From: a virus
Length of the DNA stretch: 64,000 nucleotides
IMG/VR virus record: IMGVR_UViG_3300044949_001773
Coordinates: 1-64,000 of that record
Reading direction: 5' to 3' (one strand)
The notes under the pieces were generated by a model. It was not told the DNA's origin. It made no database searches and was given only the letters and a program-made list of their open reading frames with translations. The position numbers were made by a program, and so were the translations under genes. Numbering within the stretch: the stretch's first letter is position 1; each line of letters opens with the position of its first letter. This document shows positions 23,386 through 28,178 of the stretch, one piece after another.

Positions 23386-23466
23386 GCCCCTGTGGTGAAA
23401 TGGTAAACACAGTTGACTCAAAATCAACCGCCTACGGGTTTGTCGGTTCAAATCCGACTGGGGGCA
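23386..23466 (+). tRNA. tRNA-Leu (CAA)
   Basis: Cloverleaf with acceptor GCCCCTG/TGGGGGC, anticodon stem GTTGA/TCAAC with loop CTCAAAA (anticodon CAA), a long variable arm (CGCCTACGGGTTTGT) and T-stem TCGGT. Decodes UUG. No encoded CCA. Confidence 0.93.
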
Positions 23467-23467
23467 C

Positions 23468-23500
23468 TTGACTATCATAGAATCTTGTTTTATAATAGTC
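23468..23500 (+). promoter_or_regulatory. Sigma-70-type promoter with dyad, abutting tRNA-Leu
   Basis: TTGACT (23468-23473), 17-bp spacer, TATAAT (23491-23496). GACTAT and ATAGTC (23470-23475, 23495-23500) form an inverted repeat across the promoter. Confidence 0.8.
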
Positions 23501-23508
23501 TTGTTCAA

Positions 23509-23596
23509 GCGAGTGAGACTTGGTAGTCAGAGAGGTCTTATAAACCTTTTCCGCCAGATTAGCGGCTTTGACCTGGTTCGAATCCAGGCACTCGTA
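23509..23596 (+). tRNA. Unusual class II tRNA with UAU anticodon
   Basis: Acceptor GCGAGTG/CACTCGT, T-arm CCTGG-TTCGAAT-CCAGG and a long variable stem (CCGC...GCGG) mark a class II tRNA (Leu/Ser/Tyr type). The anticodon stem AGGT/ACCT holds loop CTTATAA, so the anticodon is UAU (Ile AUA), not a Leu or Ser one. The D-arm is very short (GAC-TTGGTA-GTC). It is either a Leu tRNA with a changed anticodon or a decaying gene. Confidence 0.7.
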
Positions 23597-23600
23597 CCTT

Positions 23601-23673
23601 GCTCGTTTAGCCATCTGGTGAAGGTAGCGTTCTCATAAAGCGCCTCAGGAGAGTTCGATCCTCTCAACGAGCA
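23601..23673 (+). tRNA. tRNA-Met (CAU)
   Basis: Acceptor GCTCGTT/AACGAGC, anticodon loop CTCATAA (CAU), T-arm GAGAG-TTCGATC-CTCTC. CAU could also be the modified Ile2 tRNA; this cannot be settled from sequence alone. Confidence 0.9.
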
Positions 23674-23674
23674 C

Positions 23675-23707
23675 TTGACAATCTGAGATTTCTGCCTTAT
23701 GATTGTC
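23675..23707 (+). promoter_or_regulatory. Sigma-70-type promoter with dyad, abutting tRNA-Met
   Basis: TTGACA (23675-23680), 17 bp, TATGAT (23698-23703). GACAATC/GATTGTC inverted repeat at 23677-23683 and 23701-23707. Confidence 0.8.
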
Positions 23708-23715
23708 TTATAAAT

Positions 23716-23787
23716 GGTTCTGTTGCTTATTGGTTAAAGCCTACACCTTATAAGTGTAAGAAGAGAGTTCAATTCTCTCCAGAACCA
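23716..23787 (+). tRNA. tRNA-Ile (UAU)
   Basis: Acceptor GGTTCTG/CAGAACC, anticodon stem TACAC/GTGTA with loop CTTATAA (UAU), T-arm GAGAG...CTCTC. Class I; decodes the rare AUA codon. Confidence 0.88.
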
Positions 23788-23791
23788 CCTT

Positions 23792-23864
23792 GCCCGTGTA
23801 GTCCAGCGGAAGAGACAAACGACTTAAAATCGTTCCAGGGTCGGTTCGAATCCGACCACGGGTA
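23792..23864 (+). tRNA. Class I tRNA with UAA anticodon (Leu?)
   Basis: A clean 73-base cloverleaf: GCCCGTG/CACGGGT, D-stem GTC/GAC, anticodon stem AACGA/TCGTT with loop CTTAAAA (UAA), five-base variable loop, T-stem GTCGG/CCGAC, discriminator A. UAA would read the Leu codon UUA, but Leu tRNAs normally have a long variable arm. Its amino-acid identity is therefore open. Confidence 0.85.
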
Positions 23865-23865
23865 T

Positions 23866-23894
23866 TTGACAATCTTTGTCAAATATGATATAAA
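23866..23894 (+). promoter_or_regulatory. Sigma-70-type promoter abutting the UAA tRNA
   Basis: TTGACA (23866-23871), 17-bp spacer, TATAAA (23889-23894). Transcription would start near 23901, about 80 bases before tRNA-Arg. The leader between holds CAAAG/CTTTG and CCTCC/GGAGG pairings. Confidence 0.75.
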
Positions 23895-23979
23895 TTATCT
23901 TATGGGCATCAAAGGTCCAAACTTTGAGTAAGTCCTACCCCTCCTATGCCTCTCAACGATGCACAAACCTGGAGGCCTT

Positions 23980-24051
23980 GGGCTCATAGTTAAGCGGATA
24001 TAACTACCGCCTTCTAAGCGGTCGTCCCTGGTTCGATTCCAGGTGAGCCTG
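23980..24051 (+). tRNA. tRNA-Arg (UCU)
   Basis: Acceptor GGGCTCA/TGAGCCT, anticodon stem ACCGC/GCGGT with loop CTTCTAA (UCU), T-arm CCTGG-TTCGATT-CCAGG. Confidence 0.93.
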
Positions 24052-24093
24052 TTCTAACATTATGTTAGATTTTATAATTAACAAAAAATTGAT

Positions 24094-24276
24094 ATGCCTA
24101 AAAAACAAGTTGTAAACACTTCTTACGATCTTGGTTATTCTTCTAGAAATGAAAACCATGATACGATTCGTGACATTAGAATTAATTTTGAAAATCCTGA
24201 TGATGAGTTTCTCATGGAAAATTTGAACACCTGGCTTCGTGCTATTGGGGTTAATCTTGAAGTCATTCAAAAATAA
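24094..24276 (+). CDS. 60-residue conserved cyanophage protein
   Basis: MPKKQVVNTSYDLGYSSRNE start; C-terminal half NPDDEFLMENLNTWLRAIGV is the conserved part I recognise from other T4-like cyanophages. Lies inside the tRNA cluster. Function unknown. Confidence 0.7.
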   Translation: MPKKQVVNTSYDLGYSSRNENHDTIRDIRINFENPDDEFLMENLNTWLRAIGVNLEVIQK

Positions 24277-24284
24277 TATAAAAC

Positions 24285-24317
24285 TTGACAATTAAACTTA
24301 AATAGTTTATAATTGTC
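24285..24317 (+). promoter_or_regulatory. Consensus sigma-70 promoter with dyad, before tRNA-Gly
   Basis: TTGACA (24285-24290), 17 bp, TATAAT (24308-24313). GACAATT/AATTGTC inverted repeat at 24287-24293 and 24311-24317. Confidence 0.85.
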
Positions 24318-24323
24318 TTATAT

Positions 24324-24395
24324 GCGGGGTTAGTTCAGCGGTAGAACGCTATCCTTCCAAGTTAGATGTCGTCGGTTCGATTCCGATACCCCGCT
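24324..24395 (+). tRNA. tRNA-Gly (UCC)
   Basis: Acceptor GCGGGGT/ACCCCGC, loop CTTCCAA (UCC), T-arm GTCGG-TTCGATT-CCGAT. One mismatch in the anticodon stem (CTATC/GTTAG). Confidence 0.9.
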
Positions 24396-24509
24396 CTTGG
24401 AGTTTATCTCCATATATAAAAGTGATAGAGGGTAAGCCTCTGTTATATCCTTATGAGGTATATTACGCTTACTCCATCATAAACACACACAAACACACAA
24501 GGAGTAAAA

Positions 24510-24707
24510 ATGACACCTTACGAATTACGCTTTGAGATTTTTAAACAAGCATATGCCCATGCTAATGATGAATATTTTGCGAGATATAATATAGTTGATA
24601 ATCATAATAAGAATGCTGGAAGTAAATGGGAATATCCTTCATTTCCTTCTTATGAAAAGATTGAAGCACTTGCAGAGAAAATCAACAATTTTGTAAGTTC
24701 TAAGTGA
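24510..24707 (+). CDS. 65-residue conserved cyanophage protein
   Basis: MTPYELRFEIFKQAYAHAND... with a second half YPSFPSYEKIEALAEKINNF. AAGGAG 7 bp before the ATG. A frequently seen small protein of T4-like cyanophages; function unknown. Confidence 0.8.
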   Translation: MTPYELRFEIFKQAYAHANDEYFARYNIVDNHNKNAGSKWEYPSFPSYEKIEALAEKINNFVSSK

Positions 24708-24738
24708 TTTTATTGGGCGGAAACGCCCCTATTAGTAT

Positions 24739-24810
24739 TCCCCTGTAGCTCAGCGGTAGAGTCGTCGGCTGTTAACCGATTTGTCGCAAGTTCGAATCTT
24801 GCCGGGGGAG
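24739..24810 (+). tRNA. tRNA-Asn (GUU)
   Basis: Acceptor TCCCCTG/CGGGGGA, anticodon stem TCGGC/CGATT (mismatch at the inner pair) with loop TGTTAAC (GUU), T-arm GCAAG-TTCGAAT-CTTGC, discriminator G. Confidence 0.93.
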
Positions 24811-24960
24811 TTGGAAGGTCTGGAAATGTCTGGGTCTTCCATAAGAGTCGGGATCATCATATCCGACTCACTAAATCCTAAGTTTTCTTAGGTCGGGGAC
24901 TTGATCACCCCCGCTCGTTGCGGAGAGTGTCTTCCGCTGGTGATGGGCACTCATCACCTT
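24811..24960 (+). ncRNA. Candidate multi-hairpin RNA between tRNA-Asn and tRNA-Thr
   Basis: Five hairpins in 150 bases without an ORF: GGAAG/CTTCC (24813, 24836); GAGTCGG-GAT/ATCCGACTC, 9 pairs with one bulge (24845-24869); CCTAAG-TTTT-CTTAGG (24877-24892); CCGC/GCGG (24911-24923) or, instead, GCGGA/TCCGC (24920-24937); and GGTGATG/CATCACC (24939-24958). ATCACC at 24904-24909 can compete for GGTGAT, so two folds are possible. No known family recognised. Confidence 0.5.
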
Positions 24961-24962
24961 TC

Positions 24963-25035
24963 GCCCTTGTAGCTCAGTTGGTAGAGCACCGCTTTTGTAA
25001 AGCGGTTGTCGCAAGTTCAAGTCTTGTCGGGGGCT
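24963..25035 (+). tRNA. tRNA-Thr (UGU)
   Basis: Acceptor GCCCTTG/CGGGGGC, anticodon stem CCGCT/AGCGG with loop TTTGTAA (UGU), T-arm GCAAG-TTCAAGT-CTTGT. Confidence 0.93.
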
Positions 25036-25338: not shown

Positions 25339-25421
25339 GGAAGGAGTCCGGTTGGTCGAGGACACCGCCTTGAAAGCGGCTGGGGGTAACACCTTCGCAG
25401 GTTCGATTCCTGTTCCTTCCG
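25339..25421 (+). tRNA. tRNA-Ser (UGA)
   Basis: Class II: acceptor GGAAGGA/TCCTTCC, loop CTTGAAA (UGA), long variable arm (GGGGGTAACACCTTC region), T-arm GCAGG-TTCGATT-CCTGT, discriminator G as usual for Ser. Confidence 0.94.
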
Positions 25422-27857: not shown

Positions 27858-27929
27858 CGGGGTGTAAGTCAGCGGTAGACGGCTTGCTTTGGGAGCAAGA
27901 AGACACTGGTTCGATCCCAGTCACCCCGA
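27858..27929 (+). tRNA. tRNA-Pro (UGG)
   Basis: Acceptor CGGGGTG/CACCCCG, anticodon stem CTTGC/GCAAG with loop TTTGGGA (UGG), T-arm CTGG-TTCGATC-CCAG. Confidence 0.92.
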
Positions 27930-27944
27930 CTCATAAAATATTTT

Positions 27945-28178
27945 ATGAAAATGAATCAAGAATTAAACGAACTTCAATCATTTACAATAGAAGAATTTCA
28001 ATTAAATTTTGACAATTTAATGAATAGAGTCGAGGAAGGCGAATCATTTATTATTACAAGCAAGGATGGAAATGCTGTAATAGTTCCATATAAAGAAATT
28101 GTTGATATATGCGAAGATGCAAATGTGGATTTTGAAGAAATAATTAAAATCCATACCGATCATGAAGAAGGTTCTTGA
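27945..28178 (+). CDS. Phd/YefM-like orphan antitoxin
   Basis: 77 residues. The segment FDNLMNRVEEGESFIITSKD plus GNAVIVPYKE matches the DNA-binding fold of Phd/YefM antitoxins. The C-terminus IKIHTDHEEGS replaces the toxin-binding tail. No toxin gene follows. May act as a repressor or block a host toxin during infection. Confidence 0.7.
   Translation: MKMNQELNELQSFTIEEFQLNFDNLMNRVEEGESFIITSKDGNAVIVPYKEIVDICEDANVDFEEIIKIHTDHEEGS

Follow-up and report, generated by a model that had tools for sequence, protein, structure and literature searches.

The inverted repeats that overlie promoters of this tRNA array are probably RNA hairpins which occupy the inter-tRNA spacers of this cyanophage, have sigma-70 promoters overlaid on them and keep read-through precursors separable and shielded. 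Their hairpin structure, selection, strand and placement are well supported, and we infer for them a role in tRNA processing. The window, that is, the whole stretch of 64,000 nucleotides analysed, is part of an IMG/VR virus record of 131,809 bases whose kin are T4-like cyanophages. The named records closest to it are S-SRM01, S-T4 and DSL-LC03.

Promoters and hairpins of the tRNA array

All four sigma-70 promoters with 17-bp spacers that the original prediction placed in the cluster were present (23468, 23675, 23866 and 24285; Table 1). As it also stated, three −35 boxes lie near a tRNA 3′ end, those at 23468, 23675 and 23866 starting 0–1 nt past the upstream tRNA. Three sites matched the sigma-70 hexamers at 11–12 of 12 positions and the fourth had TTGACA-17-TATAAA; the promoter scan took only −10 boxes ending in T, and the promoter at 23866 was read from the letters. 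The three dyads described between the −35 and the bases just past the −10 were all found in place and exceeded chance, with three exact occurrences and one with a single mismatch of TTGACNNTN15TATNATNGTC in the window versus 0.06 expected from 100 shuffles. In this geometry, hereafter type A, bases 2–8 pair with bases 26–32 (first T of TTGACA = 0), the 3′ arm being made of the final three −10 bases and four discriminator bases. The stem of the first site (23468) has six pairs because the seventh is a C-A mismatch. The type A dyad is absent from the fourth promoter, which carries TTTGACAA-TCT-TTGTCAAA instead. Directly upstream of the type A copy at 24285 there is no tRNA, and in two related loci (L041 and L070) the same 33-mer lies right next to a tRNA. 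A hairpin was also looked for in the tRNA-Thr trailer of the window and none was found.

Table 1. Positions of the tRNA array, promoters and hairpins in the window.
Feature	Position	Strand	Elements and context	RNA fold	z
tRNA array	23386..25035	+	9 of 10 ARAGORN tRNA genes; tenth at 27858-27930; encoded CCA in none		
Promoter-hairpin type A, TTGACT-17-TATAAT	23468..23500	+	arms 23470-23475 / 23495-23500, inner stem; tRNA-Leu(CAA) to tRNA-Ile(UAU)	−9.1 kcal/mol	−2.8
Promoter-hairpin type A, TTGACA-17-TATGAT	23675..23707	+	arms 23677-23683 / 23701-23707; tRNA-Met(CAU) to tRNA-Ile(UAU)	−11.0 kcal/mol	−4.2
Promoter with hairpin type B, TTGACA-17-TATAAA	23865..23894	+	after tRNA-Leu(UAA); hairpin 23865-23883 overlaps −35 (23866-23871), wholly upstream of −10 (23889-23894)	−7.2 (23865-23900)	−3.3
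Trailer hairpin without type A promoter	24053..24069	+	after tRNA-Arg(UCU)	−5.4	−3.1
Promoter-hairpin type A, TTGACA-17-TATAAT	24285..24317	+	arms 24287-24293 / 24311-24317; short open frame, then hairpin, then tRNA-Gly(UCC)	−8.7	−3.9
Trailer hairpin, promoter absent	24398..24412	+	after tRNA-Gly(UCC)	−6.1	−2.5
Trailer hairpin	24812..24841	+	after tRNA-Asn(GUU)	−13.8	
Trailer hairpin, weak	27931..27948	+	after tRNA-Pro(UGG)	−4.1	

One more tRNA-like gene, which ARAGORN did not report, lies at 25339–25420 (+). It reached 44 bits with the Rfam tRNA-Sec model, whose cut-off is 47, and by eye it reads as a tRNA-Ser with anticodon TGA. In addition, a hairpin element GAGTCGG-GATCATCATAT-CCGACTC is located at about 24846–24872, and slightly changed copies of it occur in spacers of L174, L087 and L186; its loop is conserved, in contrast to the variable spacer hairpins.

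Hairpins in the spacers of related arrays

Spacers without a promoter also contained hairpins. Among the matches listed, the promoter-free spacers of up to 60 nt between tRNAs (n=63, all loci pooled) had a mean z of −3.27, and the arms of such hairpins are unrelated, with no common sequence. CCA-less arrays were then separated by the presence of cyanophage genes, a label given by tblastn hits of at least three queries from this window plus ten named-phage loci and not by phylogeny. In those with cyanophage genes, a hairpin adjoining the upstream tRNA was found in 49/49 spacers of 18–50 nt (18% when shuffled) and in 47/51 spacers of 51–150 nt (45% when shuffled), among the matches listed. When all CCA-less arrays were taken, the figure for the 87 listed spacers of 18–50 nt was 91% versus 17% in shuffled sequences. 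The 3′ end of each tRNA and its CCA status were set by acceptor-stem fit, and a stem counted as a hairpin at an energy cut-off of −5, a value chosen once −4 and −3 had been tried. With −3, hairpins were counted in 92% of the CCA-less spacers of up to 50 nt (30% shuffled) and in 50% of the 8 CCA spacers (27% shuffled), again among the matches listed.

The spacers of CCA-less arrays with cyanophage genes measured either 0–6 nt or at least 19 nt, with 3/226 in between; for lengths of 7–18 nt this compares with 37/129 in CCA-encoding arrays (p=4e-15, among the matches listed). Stems started 0–4 nt past the upstream tRNA, in a search window of at most 4 nt, and most often ended 4–6 nt before the next one. 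Named cyanophage isolates had the hairpin in 10/11 spacers of 18–150 nt, the exception being the 39-nt promoter spacer of DSL-LC02. Where a tRNA was followed by other sequence, the isolates had it in 15/47 cases; metagenome cyanophages had it in 77/155 of the listed cases in which protein genes or other long sequence followed (18% shuffled for both). Because hairpins are much scarcer in such positions, the rule is one of inter-tRNA spacers and is weaker elsewhere.

No hairpin excess was detected in CCA-encoding phage arrays among the matches listed, a contrast in which phage lineage is a confounder. The CCA-less arrays that had no cyanophage genes showed the hairpin in 18/23 spacers of 18–50 nt and, at longer spacings, in 24/36 (53% shuffled) and 38/94 (35% shuffled), among the matches listed. 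Some of them (L149, L194, L203-L205 and L208) had none. The absence of CCA as the only cause was rejected, because these arrays are mixed and several are hairpin-free. A host origin was considered as well; the 20 tRNA flanks taken from two Cyanobium genomes showed no excess (50% versus 68% shuffled).

Promoter overlays and covariation of their arms

Related promoters were collected by two scans of viral contigs. The first was seeded on the dyad pattern with pairs 5-29 and 8-26 left free, and gave at least 126 matches in the fetched loci. Among the matches listed, these two positions paired in 39/41 and 35/41 of the tRNA-adjacent sites and in 19/85 and 35/85 of the sites elsewhere. The second scan used a tRNA plus a promoter as its only seed and provided a dyad-neutral set, formed by L130-L223 and 20 earlier loci from its listing.

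Two kinds of overlay were distinguished. In promoter-bearing spacers of about 40 nt the hairpin spans from the −35 to the discriminator (type A), and in longer ones its overlap is usually confined to the −35 and the hairpin stops short of the −10 (type B), as in S-SRM01 and S-SKS1; the isolate S-SKS1 has type A spacers too. Among the matches listed, 27 dyad-neutral promoters stood in CCA-less spacers of 33–46 nt: 23 were type A, 2 type B and 2 just short (L186 and L081, each with 5/7 strict pairs). The 65 dyad-neutral promoters listed for longer or open-ended CCA-less contexts comprised 6 of type A and 30 of type B; the other 29 belonged to neither type, and several of these were on contigs without cyanophage genes. 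CCA-encoding arrays contributed four listed promoters, with type A in none (p=0.002 for type A) and a loose type B count of 1.

For the covariation analysis, 36 compact CCA-less sites among the matches listed gave an alignment of 33 distinct sites, 23 of them dyad-neutral. Two compact type B sites were omitted and L041 was swapped for the identical copy of the window; sequences were dereplicated and the statistics ignore kinship. The claim that the arms change together held in this comparison. In the 33 distinct type A sites from the matches listed, 98.3% of the arm cells were paired versus 89.8% in shuffled alignments, and covariation was 0.285 versus 0.119, a value that 0/500 shuffles reached in statistics that ignore kinship. 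Cells changed on both sides numbered 21 against 6.4 in shuffles. Four of five pair-counting measures were reached by 0/500 shuffles, and the count of pairs with two-sided change by 7/500; three pairs carry changes on both sides. When the registers were slid as a control, pairing fell far below that of the true register. Compensatory changes are, with kinship ignored, above the controls, as in a covarying RNA.

The dyad-neutral sites alone, among the matches listed, formed pair 8-26 in 21/23 cases, as high as in 0/2000 shuffles, and p=0.04 was obtained for each of pairs 5-29 and 3-31. The fourth base of the −10 also tracks base 8, since C8 was accompanied by TATGAT in 16/19 sites and T8 by TATAAT in 14/16 (among the matches listed). 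In L186 the −35 itself is altered to TTGCCA and its partner is altered to match. These promoter letters change in matched pairs because the promoter is written inside the hairpin. The outer bases GAC/GTC were nearly invariant in the alignment, and the inner stem has two registers and weak covariation.

Intact promoters without the dyad, which had been named beforehand as the observation that would speak against it, were found in part of the relatives, both in longer spacers (L198, L210, L142 and L064) and in one 39-nt spacer (DSL-LC02). Because they occur, the dyad is unnecessary for promoter function; they therefore argue against an operator required by every such promoter and not against an RNA role.

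In L121 (3605-3670) and in similar Thr-Gly, Lys-Gly and Asn-Gly spacers, a type B promoter is followed by a common leader with CCGTGTGAAGGAAGT or TTGTGTGAAGGAAG and then by tRNA-Gly; in some of these spacers a GGGAG-loop-CTCCC stem comes after this leader.

Folding of the transcribed strand

Of the spacers compared, 88 folded more stably as the transcribed strand and 36 as its complement (p=8e-10, among the matches listed), a preference characteristic of structured RNA. The CCA arrays had no significant strand bias (21 versus 12, p=0.62, among the matches listed). Within the stems G-U exceeded A-C combinations by 28:12 (p=0.017). When the region 23601–23788 was folded together with both flanking tRNAs, the spacer hairpin was predicted to be kept and both cloverleaves to form. 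Furthermore, predicted pairs between spacer and flanking tRNAs were 2.2 in real versus 10.4 in shuffled sequences, the real value being lower in 44/49 spacers. GNRA and UNCG loops gave counts of 11 versus 1 and 2 versus 0, which are small and were not relied on.

Alternative explanations

The original prediction offered an operator or an RNA stem, and it is the second that these data favour: hairpins occur in promoter-free spacers, the folding is better for the transcribed strand, and the sequence varies with pairing kept. As an operator, the dyad from −35 to discriminator would be bound by a dimeric repressor of phage or host that blocks the tRNA promoters. It does cover exactly the region contacted by RNA polymerase, like other sigma-70 promoters with an operator dyad over −35 and −10, and the near fixity of GAC/GTC in type A would fit. 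However, recognition by a single repressor should hold the arm sequence constant, and in these sites the sequences differ while the arms stay complementary: three pairs of the alignment change on both sides, promoter-free arms differ, and the arms of type B have another sequence and length and stand elsewhere with respect to the −10. The strand bias and the dyad-free promoters at other tRNAs of relatives also stand against it, and we consider an operator unlikely.

That the hairpin is an intrinsic terminator, ending the upstream transcription unit ahead of the next promoter, is improbable. Its position directly after tRNA genes and before promoters would suit that function, but many of the hairpins stand between two tRNAs and are accompanied by no new promoter, and a GC-rich stem followed by a U-tract was not what we found. 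The 8 nt after the stem contained 2.97 T versus 2.58 expected from the flank, five or more T occurred in only 18/173, and in type A the bases after the 3′ arm are mostly TCAT or TTAT.

A cruciform in the DNA, driven by supercoiling and tuning initiation at the promoter, would equally conserve complementarity and not sequence. The strand asymmetry of stability and of G-U pairs and the presence of hairpins without promoters are against it, and short arms would make cruciform extrusion unlikely, which leaves this reading a very low probability. We give hardly any credence to a neutral by-product, in which duplicated promoter modules and AT-rich composition would yield dyads by chance and common descent: type A sites do share ancestry and the GTCT[TC]AT context repeats, but the dinucleotide shuffles, the slid registers, the three pairs changed on both sides and the unrelated arms of promoter-free spacers contradict it. 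Finally, integron attC sites are read by their recombinase as folded single-stranded DNA, and by analogy each tRNA with its hairpin might be a cassette moved in this way; hairpins of unrelated sequence do flank the tRNA genes and tRNA order varies among relatives, but the strand bias fits RNA and the type A hairpin goes with the tRNA that lies downstream of it (Arg, Gly or Leu), as expected of a promoter, so that recombination sites seem scarcely credible.

A possible role in tRNA processing

In the preferred reading, that of RNA spacer hairpins, the hairpin in a read-through transcript would stop the spacer from pairing with the tRNAs, would leave RNase E no AU-rich single-stranded landing site, and would hold off 3′ exonucleases until both of its edges have been cleaved by RNase Z and RNase P, enzymes for which it would provide short linkers. 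The promoter would give a second transcript, starting about 2–8 nt upstream of the mature 5′ end of the tRNA, provided that initiation takes place at the conserved A found 7 nt 3′ of the −10 in 34/36 related sites (among the matches listed). The dyad could act only in read-through RNA, because RNA initiated at the promoter would start past the hairpin.

The tRNAs of coliphage T4 are made as multi-tRNA precursors. The T4 cluster (NC_000866) resembles the window in its tandem phage tRNA genes and T4-like genome, but its spacers measure 0–10 nt and are free of hairpins, and CCA is encoded in several of its tRNAs; a stem does occur farther on, after the tRNA with the Met anticodon. RNase Z, RNase P and RNase E are all present in cyanobacteria (PMC10989914), and a cut at the tRNA/hairpin junction would be expected because RNase Z is present and the phage tRNAs lack CCA. 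The same source describes E. coli RNase E as preferring AU-rich single strands, the cyanobacterial enzyme likewise, and the host RNase E gene as up-regulated in one cyanophage infection (PMC10989914). The accessible part of its treatment of bacterial maturation by RNase Z and CCA addition mentions no conserved hairpin directly after the tRNA, for which we infer a role here.

Other structured RNAs are found in T4-like cyanophages, some beside tRNAs (manA in L186). Each of manA, wcaG and PhotoRC-II is one motif for which Rfam has a dedicated model (PMC2864571), unlike the spacer hairpins of the window, which have no common sequence. Within phage tRNA arrays, matches to cyano_tmRNA, together with permuted tmRNA, and to manA RNA were obtained at L186 1705-1955, L189 3973-4204 and L186 2452-2659. 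An abiF RNA was identified at 23940–23976 (+) of the window, in the spacer that precedes tRNA-Arg; it scored 47.6 bits with Rfam RF03085, whose cut-off is 37. The element is also present in S-SRM01 (L121 3043-3079), and its core sequence in L017, L040, L049, L070 and L141. One report states that an abiF RNA neutralises the AbiF toxin (PMC12373285), and another reports an abiF RNA in cyanophage S-CREM1 (PMC9964418). A search of this virus record for an Abi_2 protein (PF07751) found none, and the orphan copy could be an anti-abortive-infection decoy.

Among titles and abstract openings of the open-access literature, no description of hairpins in phage tRNA spacers was found. The words promoter and hairpin are absent from the main text of the S-CREM1 non-coding RNA paper (PMC9964418), and the accessible part of a 2010 comparison of T4-like cyanophages mentions promoter prediction and not hairpins. 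What we describe looks like an undescribed rule for how a virus keeps its tRNAs apart for processing. As a tentative generalization, cyanophage arrays may follow a spacing code in which single-stranded linkers do not exceed about 6 nt and every spacer above that length is a self-contained hairpin, which would make these hairpins a new class of tRNA-processing and insulation element whose −35 and −10 bases evolve under both RNA pairing and polymerase binding. If true, this would offer a clear example from nature of two superimposed codes, the −35 and −10 letters of a promoter covarying because an RNA hairpin has to be encoded in the same DNA. For dense CCA-less tRNA arrays it points to a simple design rule, and in environmental viruses it could aid in finding tRNA arrays and promoters that lack annotation. 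It also suggests a testable reason how phages with large tRNA sets may keep their precursors processable while the RNA decay enzymes of the host are active.
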